In this document: one piece after another, positions 2,896 through 29,075 of the stretch
Layout: every line of letters begins with the position of its first letter
Position numbering within the stretch: the stretch's first letter is position 1
Assembly (NCBI GenBank): GCA_017959995.1
Contig: JAGCZN010000137.1
Location: forward strand, 1 to 38,835
Source: Clostridia bacterium
GTDB lineage: Bacteria; Bacillota; Clostridia; Christensenellales; Borkfalkiaceae
Direction of reading: 5' to 3'
Length of the DNA stretch: 38,835 nt
Made by a program: the position numbers and the translations under genes
The notes under the pieces: model-generated
Told to the model about the DNA's origin: nothing
Database searches by the model: none
The model's input: the letters and a program-made list of their open reading frames with translations, nothing else

Positions 2896-4038
2896 TTATT
2901 TCCGGAATATATCTTTTGACTCAAGATACAGGCGCTCAGCCCATATCCTGCAGCCGTTTTCATTCGGATGTCCCCCGAATCGCGCGTTAAACGGTCTTTT
3001 TTCGCTCTCCATAAGAATCGGAACTACGTCGAAAACATTGCCGCAAGCCAGATCGGTTTTGATAAAATCGTTTATTTCCGCCCAAGCGGAGCGAAGTTCT
3101 TCGGGATAGTCGAACGGCGGAACGGTCTGCATTACCACGTTGACGCCCGAAGCGGTAAGATTTTTGTAAATGTGCCGTAAATCACGCATTATCGCCTGTT
3201 TTGACCTTCCTTGAAGAAGGTCGTTCACCCCGAAACAGACGAAGCAGTAATCGCAGTTTTTCGCCTTTTCAAACCATGCGCCGCCGGACGCGGCGTCTTC
3301 CGCGCGGCCGAACCCGAGCCCCAAATTCCAATACGAGAAATCATCGCCGAGTTTTTCCGCGAAAAGGGCGTTCCAGTGGCGGTAAGAATTGAACGGCGTA
3401 CCTATACCCTGCGTTATCGAATCGCCGAAAAAAACGATTCTACCCTTCACTTTACGATCGCAACCTATCATTGAGGCGACGGGCGTTTTCCTTGAATATA
3501 CCCAGCCGCTTTCGCCTTTTACGAACGAGGGCAAAAGGCTCTCTTCGTGGTATGGGATCACGGTGCCGGAAAAGGTAATTTCAAGGCACAGATATTCGTC
3601 CTTTTCAAACGAAAGTTCTATCGTGTCGGTAGCGAAAATTTCGCCACTTCCCACTACTTTAGACCGTTTTCCTTCAAAAGTTACTTCTTTCAGGTCGGTT
3701 ACGGTTATATCCGAAGAAAATTCACCGTCGGACACGGTGAGTTTTTCGGGGTTTACGCCTTCGGGTACGAATCTGCATTTTCCCACGCGGAGACGATGCA
3801 TCGTCCATTCCGGACAGGCGCGGTTTTTGGCGGAAACGGCGCCGTCTGCATACGTGCCGTCGGTAATATTGGAAAAAAGAAAAGAATACCCGTATTTTCC
3901 GCCGCTGAAAATTTTGTAAAGTATTCTGCCGGTTTTTATTTCCTTTCCGTCCGACGCGAAAACGAACTGGTTTCCGCTGCCGGCAAGAGTATTAGACGTA
4001 AATACGCTGAAATATCCGTTCGTCAATCGCGTTTGCAT
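2896..4038 (-). CDS. SGNH/GDSL-type hydrolase (probable carbohydrate esterase)
   Basis: A 380-residue esterase with an N-terminal beta-rich region of about 190 residues followed by an SGNH domain. Block I FFGDSITQG (nucleophile Ser near residue 206), block III GVND and block V HPNENG (Asn/His region near the C terminus) are all present. The two-part layout resembles CE2-type deacetylases, so de-O-acetylation of a sugar is the likely role. No signal peptide is seen, hence cytoplasmic. I chose ATG 4038; an upstream in-frame ATG at 4146 would place codons across both divergent promoters and gives an un-proteinlike N-terminus. There is no Shine-Dalgarno before 4038 and the predicted leader is only a few nucleotides. 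Confidence 0.8.
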   Translation of the reverse strand: MQTRLTNGYFSVFTSNTLAGSGNQFVFASDGKEIKTGRILYKIFSGGKYGYSFLFSNITDGTYADGAVSAKNRACPEWTMHRLRVGKCRFVPEGVNPEKLTVSDGEFSSDITVTDLKEVTFEGKRSKVVGSGEIFATDTIELSFEKDEYLCLEITFSGTVIPYHEESLLPSFVKGESGWVYSRKTPVASMIGCDRKVKGRIVFFGDSITQGIGTPFNSYRHWNALFAEKLGDDFSYWNLGLGFGRAEDAASGGAWFEKAKNCDYCFVCFGVNDLLQGRSKQAIMRDLRHIYKNLTASGVNVVMQTVPPFDYPEELRSAWAEINDFIKTDLACGNVFDVVPILMESEKRPFNARFGGHPNENGCRIWAERLYLESKDIFRK

Positions 4039-6539: not shown

Positions 6540-9214
6540 AACGAAACGGCTCCCCCTTCAAGTCTGAACGTGCATATTTTTTTAGGTCCGAAATCAAAAC
6601 GAACTTGATTTTTGCCTAAGTATTTCTTTTCGGTTTCATCCAAACCGGTAAGATAAACCTTACCGCCGAAAGTTATACGCGCGTTTACCGCCGAAGAAGT
6701 ATAATTATACGCCCTTAAAATAATCGCGTTGCCCTTATTCGCTTTTTTAAGGCAGGATACGGTTATTCCCTTGCCTTCTATCTTCAACGCGCTGACGTTG
6801 TTTTTCACTTCGAGGCAGGGATAATCGTCCTCGGGATAGTAAAGCTGCTGAAGATCCGGATCGATAGAGAAGAATCCGCCTCCGTGAAATTTGGTTTTAT
6901 CGCAAGAGTCGAAATAACATTCGTTACCGCCGGCTAAAGCGGCCGAAGCGCCGGGTATATCCGCGCGGGCGAGATCTCCCGAATAGAGCGAAACGCCCAT
7001 ACTCCCTTCTATTTTCCTTATACATTGATTTTCGGGAACACTCCACAGCGCGCCGCCGGCAACCCGTCCGTTTTTATCGGCGTAGATGGCGCCGTTCGAA
7101 CGCACGAGAGTGAATACGAGCTTATCGTCCTTACGTTCCGTTTCGTGCTGTCCCTCGGTGAAAACGCAGAAACCGTTACCGCCGTTTTCAAGGCAGGCAA
7201 ACGAAGAATTTACGTAAGTATTGCTTTTTTCAAGCGGACAATCATCGTCTTTGCTGTAATAGGTAACGTCGAACGGGGCGTCTACCGCCATCGTTCCGGA
7301 AGAAACGTCCGAATTGAAAATTATTCTGAAACGGTGGTTTTCGGCCTTGTTCACGAAGTTATAGTCTATTTTTACCGTATCGGAATCTTTTTCAAGGGTA
7401 AGTTTCATATTGAAAAGCGTTCTTACCGTTTTTGCGGAACGCTCGTGCGTATCGAAATCGAGCGTTTCGGGAAAATACATTTCGTAAGTGAGATCGGCTT
7501 TTCCCATAAGTTCCGACTGTCTGAATACCGCCTTTTTAAGTTTATAATTCAAACGATATTCTTCAGGCGCGTCGTTTTTGTATCTGTACGCGTCGCCGAA
7601 GTCGTAACTGTCCTCGAACTCAAACAGATTTTCTATCTTTCTGTCGCCGCGGACAAGTTCAACGCCGTTGCCCTTTAACGAAAGCGAGATCTTTCCGTTG
7701 GTTATGCCGTCCGCGGGTTTTGCCGCCGCCCGTTTGCCCTTTCCTTTAGAGAGCAAAAACGCTTTTACGGCGTACGGTTCTACCGCGCCGCCGTCAAACG
7801 CCACTCGGTATCTGTAAGAATCTATAGCGAAAGGCGCGTTTAGCGGAGAAATTATATCCTTCCACACCCTGCGCTTGCTCAAAATCTCGTACGGCAGGGA
7901 GTTTCCGTTATCGTCGGTTATTCTGAAATTCTTTATGTTTTCGTTTACCGGCAGATCCACGGTAGCGTAAAGAAGCCCTTTACGCGCTGCGGAAACGGTG
8001 TTTGCGAAAACTAACTTATATTTGTTTTTCTCCTCTCCCTTAACTTTTATATGCTCGCACACGAACTGCATTCCGTCCGCGTAAAACTTATCGGCGCCTT
8101 CCGCGCCGCGTTCGTATATATCTTCCATATGCCTGTTCACGCTGTCGGCGGAACAGCCGCAGATATTATCGTGCGGAAGTTGTTTTAACTGGTTTTTCCA
8201 AAGATAAACGAAATAATCTTCCGATATACGCCCGTACGCGCCGGACAATCCTATAAGCGAATAAAGCGGTTCAAGTTGCTTTTCCAACCTGTTCTGCGCC
8301 TTTACGTTGAGCCTTTTCAGATATATCCTCGACGAGGCGCAATGCCTTAACAGTTTATCGGGATCGCCCTGTTTGAGTTCGCCCTTGAAAACGTAAGGAT
8401 CCTTTGCTTTGATCAACTCTTCCCTTACGTCGGAAAGGTATTTTTCTATCGTCGTCTGCACTACGGCTTCTTCGCCCAGGCGCGCGTTCAGTTCTTTGAT
8501 TATTTCCCTTACGTTCCTCTGCGGTTCGAGATGGTCTACGCCGTTCATCAGCAGAAGATACGGGCTTTCTTTCAGCCCTTCGAAATTCTTTTCGTTCAGC
8601 GTTATCAGTTTTAACGCCTTTACCGTATCGTCGGGAAATCTTTGAGCGTTATTGTACCAGGCGAGCATAAAACTGGAAAAAAGCCGGCTTCCGTCGCCGC
8701 CTTCCCAAATAAACTCGGTTTTCCTTTTTTCCTGCTTCCTGTCGCCGTTTTCGTCAATCGTCCATTTCTCGTAACCTCTTCCGAAAAGAAGGGTGTCTAT
8801 TCCGAACCCGTTGAATATCTGCGGCAACTGCGATATTATACCGAAATTATCGGGCGCGTAACCCGCCCTGTTCGTTCTGCCGAATTTTTTTGCGAGTTCA
8901 AACCCGATTTGCAGATTTCTAACGGTGGCTTCGCCGCTGGAATAGTAAAAATCGTTCTGCAAATACCACGGCCCGACGATTATGTTGCCCGATTTTATAT
9001 ATTTTTTAAGAATTTTTTCATTTTCCGGTCTCACGGACAAATAGTCTTCAATCACCACCGTCTGTTCGTCGAGATGAAAAACGTACTCGCCGTCCTTTCC
9101 GATTATATCGAGCAACGCGTCGATAAGGTGAACGAGCCTTGTTTTCATAACTTCAAGCGGCTGGTACCATTCTCTGTCCCAGTGGGTGTGTGAAACAACG
9201 TAGTACTTTATCAT
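6536..9214 (-). CDS. GH38 alpha-mannosidase
   Basis: An 892-residue retaining alpha-mannosidase. The N-terminal GH38 domain opens with SHTHWDREW, giving zinc ligands His11 and Asp13; the nucleophile is Asp122 in GYAPDNFG. PWYLQNDF, a helical middle domain and a long beta-rich C-terminal half follow, and the length is normal for bacterial GH38. There is no export signal, so it removes alpha-linked mannose from imported oligosaccharides in the cytoplasm. ATG 9214 follows the aldehyde dehydrogenase gene by 31 nt and the gene overlaps the GH99-like gene by 4 nt. Linkage preference cannot be told from sequence. Confidence 0.9.
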   Translation of the reverse strand: MIKYYVVSHTHWDREWYQPLEVMKTRLVHLIDALLDIIGKDGEYVFHLDEQTVVIEDYLSVRPENEKILKKYIKSGNIIVGPWYLQNDFYYSSGEATVRNLQIGFELAKKFGRTNRAGYAPDNFGIISQLPQIFNGFGIDTLLFGRGYEKWTIDENGDRKQEKRKTEFIWEGGDGSRLFSSFMLAWYNNAQRFPDDTVKALKLITLNEKNFEGLKESPYLLLMNGVDHLEPQRNVREIIKELNARLGEEAVVQTTIEKYLSDVREELIKAKDPYVFKGELKQGDPDKLLRHCASSRIYLKRLNVKAQNRLEKQLEPLYSLIGLSGAYGRISEDYFVYLWKNQLKQLPHDNICGCSADSVNRHMEDIYERGAEGADKFYADGMQFVCEHIKVKGEEKNKYKLVFANTVSAARKGLLYATVDLPVNENIKNFRITDDNGNSLPYEILSKRRVWKDIISPLNAPFAIDSYRYRVAFDGGAVEPYAVKAFLLSKGKGKRAAAKPADGITNGKISLSLKGNGVELVRGDRKIENLFEFEDSYDFGDAYRYKNDAPEEYRLNYKLKKAVFRQSELMGKADLTYEMYFPETLDFDTHERSAKTVRTLFNMKLTLEKDSDTVKIDYNFVNKAENHRFRIIFNSDVSSGTMAVDAPFDVTYYSKDDDCPLEKSNTYVNSSFACLENGGNGFCVFTEGQHETERKDDKLVFTLVRSNGAIYADKNGRVAGGALWSVPENQCIRKIEGSMGVSLYSGDLARADIPGASAALAGGNECYFDSCDKTKFHGGGFFSIDPDLQQLYYPEDDYPCLEVKNNVSALKIEGKGITVSCLKKANKGNAIILRAYNYTSSAVNARITFGGKVYLTGLDETEKKYLGKNQVRFDFGPKKICTFRLEGGAVSL

Positions 9215-10754: not shown

Positions 10755-11331
10755 AATTATCTATGAACTCCTTGAACGGTGTATGTGAAAATATTCTTTC
10801 AATCAATGCTTTATCCGTATTTTTAAGTATTTCAGCAAAATCTTTATGCGTGTTCGCGCTTATTTTTTTAAGGAGATTACGGCTTTCCCGCTGGCTTTCG
10901 CTTCTGTGTTCGGGGTAGCCGCGCCCCATTTCGCCATCGAAAAGTTTTTCGAAAATATATTTGAGATTTATATCCGCAGCCCAGCCAAATCCCTTGTTTA
11001 ACGCGAGAGAAATACAATTTCCGCCGTTTATCTGCGAAAACAGCCACGCATCGAGCGGCTCGGTTATAAGACCGCAGAAAACGCCCGGATACTGCATAGC
11101 GGAGATCATAAATCCCTGTCCCGTGCCGCAACCGCCCACTACCAGATCGGCCGCGCCGGAATTAAGCGCAATACCCGCCATAAGCCCCGTATGGATATAA
11201 GTGAGTTCCGGTTCGGCGCCGTCTGCCGACATACCGACGTTGAAAACTTCCCGCCCGGAACCGGTGAGCGCTTCCAGAATTTTGCCGTTTTTATCCCTTG
11301 ACGAAACTTCGTTAATAACAGCTATTCTCAT
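10729..11331 (-). CDS. RpiB/LacA/LacB-family aldose-ketose isomerase
   Basis: 200 residues; the first 150 form the RpiB/LacAB fold with the active-site loop GCGTGQGF (67-74, Cys68 as probable base). The extra C-terminal tail of about 50 residues is helical and not part of the core family. Members interconvert aldose and ketose forms, usually of phosphorylated C4-C6 sugars; related enzymes act in erythritol and sulfosugar pathways. It lies 5 nt after the transketolase C-subunit gene and overlaps iolA by 26 nt, so its substrate probably feeds or follows the transketolase step. A plain ribose-5-phosphate isomerase role is less likely in this setting. Confidence 0.8.
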   Translation of the reverse strand: MRIAVINEVSSRDKNGKILEALTGSGREVFNVGMSADGAEPELTYIHTGLMAGIALNSGAADLVVGGCGTGQGFMISAMQYPGVFCGLITEPLDAWLFSQINGGNCISLALNKGFGWAADINLKYIFEKLFDGEMGRGYPEHRSESQRESRNLLKKISANTHKDFAEILKNTDKALIERIFSHTPFKEFIDNYAKIEFVY

Positions 11332-13167: not shown

Positions 13168-14923
13168 AATTTTTCCGTTTTTCTTCCATATAAGTCGGAA
13201 TTGGAACGTCCCACCAACCGAACGCTTCCCCGCCGGAATATGGATATTCTGCCGAAACTTTTGCGTGTATCAGAGTGGGGCCGTTATGTGAAAGAGCCTG
13301 TTTTATCGCGTTTTCGAGGGTTTTTTCATCGTCGGCACGATAAGCGTTTACACCGAAAGCCTGCGCTATCGCCTTGAAATCCGGCGTATATCTGTTATCA
13401 TCCTTCACAAAATCGTTGCCGAAAACGCCTTCTTTGCCGAGTACGTCGTACTGCAAATCTTTTATCGCCATCCAGCCGCTGTTATCCGCAAGAATGATTA
13501 TAACGGGAATATTGTATTGCGCCGCGGTGGAAAGTTCCTGCAGGATCATCATGAAATCGCCGTCGCCCACAAGAGCGACTACCGTTCTGTCAGGCTCGGC
13601 AAGTTTCGCGCCCATGGCCGCAGGGACCGCCCAACCCATCGTTGAAAAGCCGCCCGTAGTAAGGTTGCAATATGGTACTTTATAGCAGTATTCCTGAAAA
13701 AGCTGCGCCTGCGTATTGCCGGAAGACGTGGAAATAATCGTATCCTCGGGCAAAACGTCGCTCATTACGCCGATAAGACGGGAAATCGTAAGTTCGTCAC
13801 ACTTTTCTTTTCTTTTATTTTCAACGTAGGCAAACCACTCCTTACGAAGGCGTTTTATTTCGTTGAGATATTCGGTATTTACGGTAAATTCGGGTTCCGT
13901 TGCAAGAACCTTCCGTACGAAATTTTTTACGTCTGAAATAATTCCTACTTCCGCGGGATAGTTTTTGCCTATTTCGTGCGCGTCGATATCAACGTGAATA
14001 AGCTTGGTATCGGGGAAATTAAACGCAGCGCCTTTACGGTAAGAACAGGTCGATTCATCGGCAAATCTTGCGCCCAAAGCGAGGATAACGTCTGCGTTTC
14101 TGCTTATTTCAAGTCCGATCTTCGTGCCCTTCGAACCGGTGTGAAAACAATACTGTTCGTGCGTTTCTTTGACCGTGCCTTTCGCGGCGAGCGTTGTGAT
14201 TATCGCCGCACCCCACTTTTCGGCGAGTTCGGTGATAATCTCGCCCGCCTTGGAGTACAAAGCGCCGCCGCCCACGAAAATTACGGGCCTTTTTGCCGTT
14301 TTCATTAGTTTTACGGCCTTTTCTACGGATTCATCGTCCACACTCGGCAAGCAGGAATATTTCTGCGCGCCGGCATAATTTACGTTATCCACAGATTGCG
14401 ACTGCACGTCCATCGGAAGTGTTACGGCGCACGGGCCTTTTCTGCCGCTCATCATTTCTTTGAAGGCGTTATTGAGTATCCGCGGAAGTTGGTTTGCGTT
14501 TTCAACTCGCCAGCAGCGTTTAGTAAGCGGTTCTACGCTGCGCGAAATATTACTATCGTGATAGCGTTCAAGTTCCTGCAAAACCCCCACGCCGCTCATA
14601 TTCGTGTGCGTGTCTCCGCAAAAAGCGAGAAACGGCGTGGAATCCGCATAAGCGGTGCCCAAACCTATACTCAGATTGAGCGTGCCCGGCCCTATGGACG
14701 CAAACACGGCAAGCGGACTGCCTTTCACCCTGTAATACCCGTCTGCCATCGCGGTGGCGGCCTGTTCGTGCTTTACCTGTAAATATTTTATTTTACCCGC
14801 TTTTTCCGCTTTTCTGACTGCGTCGAACAACCCCAGAACTCCGTGTCCGGGAATGCCTATTATGTAAGGAACTTTCTCCTCCGTCAGTTTTTTTACTATT
14901 GTTTCTCCACCTGTCAGTTTCAT
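13136..14923 (-). CDS. ThDP-dependent enzyme, IolD-like (acetolactate-synthase superfamily)
   Basis: 595 residues with the three domains of the acetolactate-synthase fold. Glu53 in KHEQAATAMADGY activates ThDP, and GDGDFMM near residue 453 begins the ThDP motif. The N-terminal GIPGHGVLGL and the C-terminal GWWDVPIPTY recall IolD, the trihydroxycyclohexane-dione hydrolase that opens the inositol-derived ring to 5-deoxyglucuronate. IolD is usually about 640 residues, so this is a shorter, divergent relative. Neighbouring IolG-, IolE- and IolA-like genes support a cyclitol role. Alternatives are another carboligase/hydrolase of the superfamily or a sulfoacetaldehyde acetyltransferase-like enzyme; I see no strong match to the latter. 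Confidence 0.7.
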   Translation of the reverse strand: MKLTGGETIVKKLTEEKVPYIIGIPGHGVLGLFDAVRKAEKAGKIKYLQVKHEQAATAMADGYYRVKGSPLAVFASIGPGTLNLSIGLGTAYADSTPFLAFCGDTHTNMSGVGVLQELERYHDSNISRSVEPLTKRCWRVENANQLPRILNNAFKEMMSGRKGPCAVTLPMDVQSQSVDNVNYAGAQKYSCLPSVDDESVEKAVKLMKTAKRPVIFVGGGALYSKAGEIITELAEKWGAAIITTLAAKGTVKETHEQYCFHTGSKGTKIGLEISRNADVILALGARFADESTCSYRKGAAFNFPDTKLIHVDIDAHEIGKNYPAEVGIISDVKNFVRKVLATEPEFTVNTEYLNEIKRLRKEWFAYVENKRKEKCDELTISRLIGVMSDVLPEDTIISTSSGNTQAQLFQEYCYKVPYCNLTTGGFSTMGWAVPAAMGAKLAEPDRTVVALVGDGDFMMILQELSTAAQYNIPVIIILADNSGWMAIKDLQYDVLGKEGVFGNDFVKDDNRYTPDFKAIAQAFGVNAYRADDEKTLENAIKQALSHNGPTLIHAKVSAEYPYSGGEAFGWWDVPIPTYMEEKRKNYENGNSKETV

Positions 14924-24777: not shown

Positions 24778-27051
24778 TTATATATTATTTTTACTCTTGC
24801 GAGTTTTGAGCGTTATCGCCGCGAGCGCAAAGAGCGCCAAAACGCTTACGAAAGCGGCATTCCCCTCCGCCGCGCCGCCGCAACCGCCGGAAACCGTTTC
24901 GGTAACGGTAACTTCAAACGCGGAGTAGTTTATTATTTTTACGCTGAATTTCGTTTCGTGGGAAATACCGTCTTCATCGGTCGTTACGAGTACGAGATTG
25001 TAAATACCGTTTTCGTGGCCCATAAGAAAACTGTTGCGGATAAGCAGCGAACCCTGCCTTTCGTTGTACATATAGTCGGAATTGGTTATGCCCCATCCGT
25101 AAATCGATTCGAAATCGTTGTTGTAAAGCGAAAGTTTTATTCTCAGATCCAAAGTGTTGTCTTCCGTTTCAATGGAATTGACCGCGCTGTTTTCTATCTG
25201 GTAAGAAGTAACCGTTTTCCTGTCGAAAACCACGGTGGGATTGCCCAGATCGTCCTTCTCGGAGGCTACTACCGTGGGAACGTTTTCAACGTAATCGTCC
25301 GGGAAATATCTTATACGTAAATATTGGGCGCCGTTCACGCTCTTTGCGAAAAGTTCGTTAAGTCCGAAATTTTTGCCCGCAAAGTACGACTGTTTTATAG
25401 TTAGTATTCCCGACGCGTAAGAGTAATCGGCGGGATCTACGGCCTGTTTCATATCCTTATCGTAAAACAGGGAGATATCTTCGCCGTAATTTTCGAGAGT
25501 GATCTCAAGATCTCCGTCGGCACGTTTATACTTTTTAACGGGCAGGCCGCTGTCGTACGGGGCGTTTACGCCTCTTATATGCAGAACGTTGTTCTTATCG
25601 GGCTGGCGGGGAATTTCCGAAAAACAGAAATACGGATACGCCATATATCCGCTTGACGCAAAGAACGAACGCTTCATGTTCTTAAAGGTGTAAACGTAAA
25701 TATCGTTGAAGTAAACGTCGGTTCCGTTGTCGTTAATAACGAAACTTATCCTGTCGAGACTGGAAGGCCCTTCGTAGGATTCGAGATTGTTGGGTTGCGC
25801 GTTCCACGCAACGTAATAATCGGTGAGTCCGTTTTCCACGTCGATTCGGGCGGAAACCGCAAGTTTGCCTATGAACATACAAGAACCTATATTGGAATAC
25901 GCAAGGTCAAGTTCGTCCTCAAACGGCGATTTGGTTACGATTGCGCCCGTGCCCATTTTTTCGTACATTAAAGGCGTGAGCTTTTCAAACGGAGAACGAC
26001 CGAGTTTTACCGCAAGATAGTTCTGCGGGCCGTTTCCGTCAAGACAGCACTCTATCACTATCGGCTCGTCTACCGAATAGCCTTTCGTGCTGACAACGCG
26101 TTCGCGCATCATCATATTGCCGGTGTAGGCCGCCGTCCAGGGAAGCAGGTCGTTACGCTCATCGACTTCAAAACGTAAAGTTCCGTCGCTTTCCCTTTCC
26201 ACTATGCTTTCGCCGAGAGTCATCCATTCGTCGTAAACGCTTCTTTCAAAGGTTCTTTCGGGAGTTTTCAGCGCTATGTGCATATCGGGCATGGCTACCG
26301 ACTTTGCCTCTACCTTGACCGTAGCGCTGCTTAAATCGAACGCGCCGTACTGCTCCACGGGAACGAAATTCGTTCCGTCCGCCGAGATAAGGTACCAATC
26401 TTTGTTCTTGAAGCAGGAAAGCGTGTGCCATACGCCGAAATTCGGCGCGTAGGAAAACACCGTTTCAACGTAGTGTCTGCCGTTAGTTTTATTGCCGCTT
26501 GCATCGGCCCTTATGGACGGCCCTACGTAATAAAGATTTACGAAAATATGGTTGGGATAATCGGTGTTATCGTCGGCATACTGGTGATAAAACACCGCCT
26601 CAAAGCCGTTTCCCTCGGTATCCGTTACCGTAAATTTAACGTAACTGTGGTTATAGAAGCGCGCGTCGTTTATCACCGCGCCTTTATCCACTATAGCCGC
26701 ACCGTGGGGATTTTCGAAAACGTACACTTCCTCGCCTATTGACAAACCTTCGTCGTCGGGAAGCATATAGGAAAATTCCAGACCGTTTTCCATATCCGAC
26801 GGATAAATGTATTCGGCGCGGATATAGTTTTCGGATATGCCGTTATTGTCCACGGTCAACGCGTCGTCGATAATTACGCCGGTTTTATCGTAAGTGTTTA
26901 TCGAGAGCGGAGCAGAAACTCTCCACCCGCGCATATCCGTTTCCGCGTAAGCGTCGGTAAAGTTTACGGATGAAAGACCTATCGTTAAAGACAGGGCGAA
27001 CATCAACGCAAAAAGAACCGTTATTTTTAATTTATAACCCGTTTTTTTCAT
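24778..27051 (-). CDS. Exported surface protein with X2-like domains and Gly-Cys C-terminal anchor signal
   Basis: 757 residues when started at ATG 27051, which has AAAGGGTGG 8 nt upstream; an in-frame TTG at 27072 is less likely. Signal peptide to about residue 36. Two beta-sandwich regions (about 40-240 and 260-480; GVWHTLSCFKNKDWYLIS in the first) look like laminin-G/concanavalin-type folds, but I do not recognise them firmly. They are followed by two X2-like Ig domains (about 490-590 and 605-705); DGDLEITLENYGEDIS and GSLLIRNSFL recall CBM-X2 modules. The tail is GGCGG (Cys724), a hydrophobic helix and basic residues. No catalytic motif is evident; sugar recognition is inferred. Confidence 0.75.
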   Translation of the reverse strand: MKKTGYKLKITVLFALMFALSLTIGLSSVNFTDAYAETDMRGWRVSAPLSINTYDKTGVIIDDALTVDNNGISENYIRAEYIYPSDMENGLEFSYMLPDDEGLSIGEEVYVFENPHGAAIVDKGAVINDARFYNHSYVKFTVTDTEGNGFEAVFYHQYADDNTDYPNHIFVNLYYVGPSIRADASGNKTNGRHYVETVFSYAPNFGVWHTLSCFKNKDWYLISADGTNFVPVEQYGAFDLSSATVKVEAKSVAMPDMHIALKTPERTFERSVYDEWMTLGESIVERESDGTLRFEVDERNDLLPWTAAYTGNMMMRERVVSTKGYSVDEPIVIECCLDGNGPQNYLAVKLGRSPFEKLTPLMYEKMGTGAIVTKSPFEDELDLAYSNIGSCMFIGKLAVSARIDVENGLTDYYVAWNAQPNNLESYEGPSSLDRISFVINDNGTDVYFNDIYVYTFKNMKRSFFASSGYMAYPYFCFSEIPRQPDKNNVLHIRGVNAPYDSGLPVKKYKRADGDLEITLENYGEDISLFYDKDMKQAVDPADYSYASGILTIKQSYFAGKNFGLNELFAKSVNGAQYLRIRYFPDDYVENVPTVVASEKDDLGNPTVVFDRKTVTSYQIENSAVNSIETEDNTLDLRIKLSLYNNDFESIYGWGITNSDYMYNERQGSLLIRNSFLMGHENGIYNLVLVTTDEDGISHETKFSVKIINYSAFEVTVTETVSGGCGGAAEGNAAFVSVLALFALAAITLKTRKSKNNI

Positions 27052-27068
27052 ACGATTTTCCACCCTTT

Positions 27069-27758
27069 TCAAATTCCGTAAGCGTAGGCGTAGCGGCCGA
27101 GAGGCGCGCTGTTGCCGTTTACGTAGAAGTTCATTATATCGTTCGGATCGATAACGTTATCCGAGGCTTTGAGCCTTACGGAAATCCTGTCGGCATTTGC
27201 GCCGATAGCGGCGAGAGGAACCGTTATGAACATGGCGTCGTCAGAGTACTCTATATCGACTTCGCCTACCGATTCCCACGAGAACCCGCCCCTGCTGCGC
27301 TCTAAACTGGTTTTGCCGGTTGCGCCGGGTTTACGGTTGATAACGTAATTGAAACCGCAGAAATTATCCGCGCCGCCCGTGCCGAGCCAAACGTTCATAT
27401 AGTTATAATCGCCCGCGGCGCGCCTGGTAAGACTTTCGGCCGTGGTTACTTTTATATACAGATTGGTTCCGTCGTGCGCGGCTTGAACGGTTTTGATCCT
27501 GTTGCGCGAGGTGTTGTTCTTATACTTTTCGGTGGAAGATCCGTAACGGAGAAAATCACGCTCTATCGCCCAATCGGGGCTTACGTAATTCACGAACGAA
27601 CGGATGCCGTTCCACTTATCGTCGTTTATGCCCGTAACGGTATTCTGCGGCATAACGTATCTGGTGGCTACTTCGTATTTATAACGGTCAACCTTAGCCC
27701 TTGTGAGCAGAATAAGATTGTCGCCGTAGCCGCCTGTCATAGGTACTATATCGCGGGA
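27069..27758 (-). CDS. C-terminal part of the GH99-like lipoprotein gene (CBM9-like domain), after the in-frame TAG
   Basis: In the same frame as the upstream part, the reading continues after TAG 27759-27761 with SRDIVP and then Met, for 229 residues to TGA. The TAG falls in a conserved-looking linker (EYSEE / SRDIVPMTGGYGDN). The rest resembles a CBM9-like carbohydrate-binding domain, with AHDGTNLYIKVTTAE, MNVWLGTGG and FGFNYV-like strands. The internal ATG at 27740 has no good Shine-Dalgarno and would start inside the conserved segment, so I read this as one gene with 27759-29075. Unless TAG is read through, this part is untranslated or restarted. Confidence 0.75.
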   Translation of the reverse strand, partial: SRDIVPMTGGYGDNLILLTRAKVDRYKYEVATRYVMPQNTVTGINDDKWNGIRSFVNYVSPDWAIERDFLRYGSSTEKYKNNTSRNRIKTVQAAHDGTNLYIKVTTAESLTRRAAGDYNYMNVWLGTGGADNFCGFNYVINRKPGATGKTSLERSRGGFSWESVGEVDIEYSDDAMFITVPLAAIGANADRISVRLKASDNVIDPNDIMNFYVNGNSAPLGRYAYAYGI

Positions 27759-27761
27759 CTA
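27759..27761 (-). other. In-frame TAG (amber) codon splitting the GH99-like gene
   Basis: The minus strand reads GAA GAA TAG TCC CGC GAT in the frame shared by both parts. A change from TAT or TAC (Tyr) would explain it, and an aromatic residue before SRDI is what I recall from relatives. The 25 complete genes in the window stop with TGA (14) or TAA (11), never TAG. Confidence 0.85.
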
Positions 27762-29075
27762 TTCTTCGCTGTATTCGTCGATATACTTCACCGCGCCGTT
27801 TACGTTGTATTTAGGCGTGGTCCATTCGTTGAACTGCGTAATAAACACGCAGTTTACGGGATCGGCGGTGCCGAGAGTGGAATAAACGGTATCCCACTGC
27901 CTTGAAAAGTTTAAGCCCGCGCGGCCCGCTTCAAGCGAATTGGTACCCGCGTTTACCCTGTTTCTTTGGGAAGAAGTGCCTCTGCCCTGCCCGTATTCGG
28001 TAACGCCTTCGGGGTGGGAATACCCTCTGCCCCAGTTTCTGCCCTCGTCGCTAGCAACAACGGTTTTGGCGTGCTGCATAACGCTGACGTTCATCTGTCC
28101 GTTATGGCTCAACTGCGGATATACGAATTCCATCCAGGAGAACGCTTCGTCGTCGTGCGGATCGTTCGGCCACTGGGTGGGAACGGCGTCGATAAAGTTG
28201 TACGCTTCCATCTGCGCGGGCGTAGCGTTAAGAAAATCGCCTTTGTTTACCGAAACCAACGGCTTGCCGTTGGGCGCATACCAAAGATCGGGATAATAAT
28301 ACCCTCTCGGACCGGCCGTTTCTTCGTTGAAATAACTGGTGTATAGTTCTTCTACCTTCTCGTGAGAATCGGTATTGCACACCCACATCAGTTTAGGTAC
28401 TTTGAATCCTTGTTCTTTATAGAACACAAGCGTTTTTACTATAACGTCGGTAACGTTTACGTACGCTAAGATGTTGGTTATATCGAAGCCGAGAAAATCA
28501 AGGTCCATATCCATTATCATCTGCATGTGCTTGTTTATTACCCACGGATCCGACGATCTGTAATAATCGAAAAGAGGTTCGCCCCACCAATGCTGCTGGT
28601 TGAGCGGACTGATACGGCTGGACGCCGCCGATTTATCGAAAACGAGTTCCGGATGCTCTTTGAGTATTACCGATATATCGTAAATTTCCGTTTCGATACT
28701 CGGGTGGTTACCGTTGAGCAGATAATAGAATATGCCCACGTCTCTTCTTAAAACGTTGCCGTGTTCGTCCGTTACCGCTTTACCGCGCGGAAGAACTTCC
28801 CTTCCGTAAACGTCGGTAGCGACGAGATTTTCAAACGTATACTCGATATTCGTGCTGAGATTTACGGGGCGCATATCCACGCCGCCTTCCACGTAAGTAA
28901 CTTCCGGGCCGAACGGATCAGCATCGTAATCCACGATTTCGTTGTGCCCCGATTGGGAGATCGCGTCGTCCCCCGGGACGTAAATCGTGTAACTTCTGGT
29001 CGTCGAACAGGAAAAGCACAAAAACGAGATCATGAAGGTTAAAAAACCGGCAATCGCATTTTTTGTTTTATTCAT
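27759..29075 (-). CDS. GH99-like lipoprotein, catalytic part, ending at an in-frame TAG
   Basis: 438 residues before TAG. The lipoprotein signal peptide ends LCFSC (Cys23). A TIM-barrel enzyme region follows: DVGIFYYLLNGNHPS near 115, HWWGEPLFDYY near 162, MDLDFLGFDITN near 190, and FITQFNEWTTPKY near 410, where the Asn-Glu pair recalls the WbsX/GH99-like protein encoded at 5433-6539. It is probably a surface glycoside hydrolase, possibly on alpha-mannosides. I start it at ATG 29075 with AAGGAGG upstream; another ATG at 29093 lacks a ribosome site. The gene follows the second permease gene by 25 nt. The stop is the only TAG used in the window and probably interrupts one longer gene. Confidence 0.8.
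   Translation of the reverse strand: MNKTKNAIAGFLTFMISFLCFSCSTTRSYTIYVPGDDAISQSGHNEIVDYDADPFGPEVTYVEGGVDMRPVNLSTNIEYTFENLVATDVYGREVLPRGKAVTDEHGNVLRRDVGIFYYLLNGNHPSIETEIYDISVILKEHPELVFDKSAASSRISPLNQQHWWGEPLFDYYRSSDPWVINKHMQMIMDMDLDFLGFDITNILAYVNVTDVIVKTLVFYKEQGFKVPKLMWVCNTDSHEKVEELYTSYFNEETAGPRGYYYPDLWYAPNGKPLVSVNKGDFLNATPAQMEAYNFIDAVPTQWPNDPHDDEAFSWMEFVYPQLSHNGQMNVSVMQHAKTVVASDEGRNWGRGYSHPEGVTEYGQGRGTSSQRNRVNAGTNSLEAGRAGLNFSRQWDTVYSTLGTADPVNCVFITQFNEWTTPKYNVNGAVKYIDEYSEE

Follow-up and report, generated by a model that had tools for sequence, protein, structure and literature searches.

A lone in-frame TAG interrupts a conserved GH99-like lipoprotein gene in a draft Clostridia genome

Introduction

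Bacterial nonsense pseudogenes and null alleles typically carry a single in-frame stop, while the reading frame and synteny are kept, the orthologue is intact and the termination machinery is ordinary. An in-frame stop within a conserved gene is also seen in bacterial recoding systems, such as those that read UGA in the Mycoplasmatales and in the Absconditabacteria/Gracilibacteria, or that place pyrrolysine at UAG. All bacterial genome-wide code changes known at the time of a 2021 survey reassign UGA, and similar stop-codon inferences in yeasts have been blamed on pseudogenes (eLife 2021, PMC8629427). The closest described enzymes to the gene considered here are those of the GH99 family (endo-α-mannosidase/endo-α-mannanase, PF16317), whose catalytic Glu pair lies in the EWHE motif; these residues are E404 and E407 in MANEA, and the pair is the same in bacterial GH99 (PMC11025385).

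Here, we describe a GH99-like lipoprotein gene interrupted by one TAG in the window, i.e., the whole 38,835-nucleotide stretch of Clostridia bacterium DNA that was analysed. The gene shares all the above-listed features of a nonsense pseudogene or null allele. It differs from the typical case in that the stop is known from a draft consensus alone and that there are as yet no further lesions.

Results

A single conserved frame with one internal stop

The minus strand between 27069 and 29093 translates as a single 674-codon frame with one internal stop, the in-frame TAG at codon 445, which is flanked by ...KYIDEYSEE on the upstream side and SRDIVPMTGGYGDN... on the downstream side (Table 1). The halves of the frame on either side of the TAG both score as coding. 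Their dN/dS values against the nearest orthologue, 0.12 before the TAG and 0.21 after it, point to purifying selection on both sides, and the split frame therefore exceeds what chance would produce. This orthologue (G005:C133:9946-11970, L027; contig record JAFTDZ010000242.1) comes from a goat-rumen metagenome-derived genome of the same genus and a different species. It shows 82% amino-acid identity, aligns without gaps over all 674 codons and has TAT at codon 445 with no internal stop. The TAG observation of the earlier note is thus confirmed, both in the unshifted frame on the two sides of the stop and in the single base that separates it from a Tyr codon.

A whole-protein search across 61 relatives, in which no motif was used, recovered homologues in six genomes besides the window's own. 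We aligned these across the site, as the earlier note had proposed: in the 19-sequence alignment the position of codon 445 is occupied by Tyr or Phe in all other sequences, and none of these whole-protein-search homologues has a stop, an end or a split there. A normal C-terminal end at codon 445 is excluded, as no homologue terminates at this point. Immediately after the TAG, S446, R447, D448 and E450 are among the best-conserved residues of the family, with SRDIE being its most conserved stretch. A collection-wide peptide scan was also run with the best-conserved peptide as its query, which was chosen automatically and covers exactly this SRDIE stretch. The loci obtained from it, picked by the motif [ED][YF]SRD[IAC]E, served in the fold and branch-length analyses. 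They were excluded as evidence for Tyr/Phe conservation because they had been selected by that very motif, and the conservation claim draws solely on loci from the whole-protein search (alignment A1).

The family is locally expanded in G004, a small genome of the same genus, which has eleven matches to it (contigs C5, C8, C14, C15, C18, C33 and C79), some of them in adjacent pairs.

Going by a reading of the open reading frames, the interrupted gene is preceded in its operon by genes for a Gfo/Idh oxidoreductase, a solute-binding protein and two ABC permeases, and followed by genes for three long proteins of secreted or surface type. This gene order is common to G005, and all the syntenic neighbours are open. 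At 27051-27072 on the minus strand, the next gene is listed with a TTG start that overlaps the GH99-like gene's stop; the ATG at 27051, with GGGTGG ahead of it, appears the more likely start.

A GH99-like barrel followed by a CBM9-like domain

An AlphaFold2 model built from 36 sequences (mean pLDDT 83) displays a barrel followed by a C-terminal β-sandwich. The barrel is of the GH99-type (β/α)8 kind: VIA-align superimposes it on 6zdf_A with Z 18.2 and rmsd 4.1 over 264 aligned residues, and Foldseek retrieves 6zdl at an E-value of 1.8e-5. In the VIA-align comparisons, Z is about 18 for the GH99 structures, clearly more than for GH71 (about 14-15) or for other barrels (about 11). The family profile also retrieves GH99 chains by sequence at 5.6e-7, and PF16317 is matched by 8 of the 36 alignment members (best 2.4e-8), with the window protein itself having no Pfam match. 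As for the C-terminal domain, PF06452 is matched by one homologue (6.3e-4), and the CBM9 structures 1i82 and 7nwo are among the weaker fold matches (Foldseek E-values about 5e-3 to 6e-3); for the C-terminal part by itself, the top VIA-align entry is ethylbenzene dehydrogenase chain C. The GH99-like catalytic domain that had been proposed from the letters is hence supported, and the CBM9-like assignment of the C-terminal domain is tentatively supported.

As the GH99-type fold reaches residue 474, the TAG at 445 falls inside the catalytic domain. On the predicted structure, the CBM9-like tail is not all that truncation costs: the SRDIE motif and the final barrel helix are lost with it, and the 444-residue product would most likely be dead. 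The proposal that the stop severs a binding tail from the enzyme thus stands with respect to the loss of the tail, but not with respect to a cut between domains, since the stop lies inside the barrel fold. Likewise, the EYSEE-TAG flank had been read as a linker into a CBM9-like domain: the domain is there, but the flank is no mere linker, residues 446-474 being part of the GH99-type barrel.

Table 1. Features of the interrupted gene and other gene-interrupting stops in the same draft genome
Feature	Location	Strand	Remarks
Upstream part, 444 codons	27762..29093	-	lipoprotein-type signal peptide (LCFSC) and most of the GH99-like barrel
In-frame TAG	27759..27761	-	codon 445; Tyr or Phe in homologues, TAT in the nearest orthologue
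Downstream part, same frame	27069..27758	-	last barrel helix and CBM9-like domain; terminator TGA
Open reading frame from internal ATG (Met452)	27069..27740	-	true start unlikely
Region aligned to GH99 structures	27672..28748	-	residues 116-474; extends 29 codons beyond the TAG; VIA-align Z about 18 (6zdf/4ad0/4ad1)
Invariant Glu423, NEW motif	27825..27827	-	counterpart of the first Glu in GH99 EWHE
Predicted last barrel helix, residues 459-472	27678..27719	-	AlphaFold2 model; lost upon truncation
CBM9-like β-sandwich, residues about 480-673	27075..27656	-	lost upon truncation
TAG in full-length purL	L051 (G000:C117) 14223-14225	+	relatives have Asn, Val, Lys, Leu, Met
TGA in EAL-domain gene	L058 (G000:C122) 8553-8555	+	Gly in close relatives
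TGA in GH29-like gene	L057 (G000:C116) 2911-2913	+	Lys or Asp in relatives
TAA in GH38-like gene near contig end	L132 (G000:C63) 11155-11157	-	Glu in G005

The family has in common with GH99 the barrel and, in the NEW motif, the first catalytic Glu, which is invariant as E423. It differs in sharing only about 12-18% identity with GH99, in the added CBM9-like domain and, as regards a defining feature of GH99, in the position of the second EWHE Glu (426), which is a nearly invariant Ala in the homologues and Thr in the window protein. Alignments A1 and A2 at 27816-27830 (minus strand) show that, of the two EWHE Glu residues, the first alone is retained in this widespread GH99-like family. As nearly all members have Ala in place of the second, the catalytic machinery of the family probably differs from that of GH99.

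Rate and constraint on the lineage of the window

We hold with high confidence that the draft consensus carries a one-base substitution from Tyr to amber that is not decoded, and that its product is almost certainly inactive, be the change real or an assembly error. The conserved Tyr codon 445 would have become an ordinary amber stop, and translation would end there, yielding a 444-residue lipoprotein without the last GH99-like barrel helix or the CBM9-like domain. As to whether the organism itself carries the change, we infer that a real mutation is somewhat more likely than a base error. To a real and fairly recent nonsense mutation, which would leave either a pseudogene or a null allele specific to the strain in an otherwise intact glycan-use operon, we give a little better than an even chance. 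A recent nonsense mutation was one of the options of the earlier note and is now the leading one.

The evidence in its favour comes first from the branch lengths of the GH99-like gene on the lineage of the window's draft genome (G000) and on that of G005, which are 0.085 versus 0.054 before the TAG and 0.199 versus 0.089 after it. The gene has thus changed about twice as fast on the G000 lineage, more so in the tail than in the head, whereas the three comparison genes (purL, Gfo/Idh and permease, pooled) give a G000/G005 branch ratio of 1.08, a contrast with a nominal, uncorrected p of about 0.01. In the outgroup-majority columns after the TAG there are 11 changes in G000 and 2 in G005, and divergence after the TAG, divided by that before it, amounts to 1.82 for the G000-G005 pair as against 0.95-1.38 in the nine next-closest pairs. 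Second, near the TAG the family-invariant Glu450 and Ala426 have changed to Val and Thr, respectively, in G000, as expected of a gene that is no longer maintained. Third, the open state of all the syntenic neighbours favours a real mutation of this one gene. On the other side, the strict-column acceleration tests and the profile-based test for relaxed constraint (p = 0.34) were not significant, the tests are nominal and uncorrected, and a rate shift by itself may have other causes. Moreover, there is no second inactivating lesion, i.e., no further stop or frameshift after the TAG. The part after the TAG still appears mostly constrained, and hence has been functional for most of the divergence.

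Other in-frame stops in the draft genome

A wrong base in the consensus, arising from low coverage or mixed strains with the organism itself having a Tyr codon, is a real possibility, if a less probable one than the mutation. The draft is metagenome-assembled (1.64 Mb in 208 contigs, 77% complete) and contains runs of N. In the 710 kb sampled from it (43% of the draft), four further gene-interrupting stops were judged to be present, namely a TAG, two TGAs and a TAA (Table 1), such that two of the five overall are TAG; the remaining candidates of the scan were assigned by eye to normal gene junctions or antisense frames. The identical scan over 588 kb of four relatives (G005, G041, G038 and G012) found no recognisable real interruption. 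With three kinds of stop at unrelated residues, the pattern is that of random substitutions or errors and not of recoding. Random substitutions at about 2e-4 per coding base would account for five stops, a rate within the reach of a low-coverage consensus. One of them lies in purL, which shows no acceleration on the G000 branch; its TAG is therefore likely an assembly error or a very recent change. Further, the ends of contigs C63 and C149 (L299 and L301) share an overlap of about 59 bases that contains one mismatch, which suggests a strain mixture or an assembly break. Against a consensus error stand the acceleration of the GH99-like gene on the G000 branch, unlike purL, and the changes at family-invariant positions close to its TAG.

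The TAG as a sense codon

Decoding of the TAG as an amino acid, be it by genome-wide recoding, a suppressor tRNA, pyrrolysine or programmed readthrough, is very improbable, even though the frame is open and constrained on both sides of it. The earlier note had raised suppression or recoding and suggested looking for a CTA-anticodon tRNA, PylS or an altered RF1. RF1 is present in G000, scoring 459 bits with the prfA equivalog model against a cut-off of 423; its main domains are intact, with the first ~90 residues cut by a contig end. RF2, likewise seen without its N-terminal part, is also above its curated cut-off. TAG terminates 48 of the 560 genes in the G000 sample, a proportion matching that in G005 (12 of 139). 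The stretches after terminal TAGs are not meaningfully more coding-like than those after TAA or TGA. ARAGORN gave 23 tRNA matches, none with a CTA anticodon, in this 77%-complete draft from which ordinary tRNAs such as Tyr are also missing; one cut-off tRNA (L025) has the anticodon GGC, as read by eye. Given the incompleteness of the genome, an unfound suppressor tRNA is no proof of its absence, and a decoding tRNA could lie in the missing part. None of the six genomes searched in the genus has a PylS match above the TIGR02367 cut-off, the 77%-complete G000 has no match of any kind, and the sub-cut-off matches in the relatives resemble those in most control genomes.

In contrast to the known bacterial recoding systems, then, RF1 is kept, TAG still serves as an ordinary terminator, neither a decoding tRNA nor PylS was found in the draft, and the other in-frame stops show no bias towards TAG and lie at unrelated residues; the orthologue, for its part, has TAT. 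Genome-wide recoding of TAG is rejected on RF1, terminator use and the mixture of in-frame stops, and pyrrolysine is rejected as PylS was not found in the 77%-complete draft. Less probable still is readthrough or suppression at this single site, by which the truncated lipoprotein and its full-length form would both be made with a decoding tRNA coded in the missing part of the genome.

Separate production of the two halves, with the second starting from the ATG at 27740, seven codons past the TAG and followed by an open frame to the end, is just as improbable and is rejected: there is no ribosome-binding site ahead of that ATG and many homologues have Met452 as a normal internal residue, making it an unlikely start, while the second half would begin inside the barrel without a signal peptide and no homologue is split at this point.

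Conclusions

An undecoded one-base change from Tyr to amber, more probably a real nonsense mutation than a consensus error, is in itself of little importance: draft genomes often contain nonsense changes or wrong bases, and the case is an ordinary one. It does carry a caution, in that recoding is only weakly supported by one in-frame TAG in a draft genome. A second caution is that gene callers would annotate two proteins at this locus, a shortened enzyme and an independent CBM9-like protein, and neither is likely to function as a unit.
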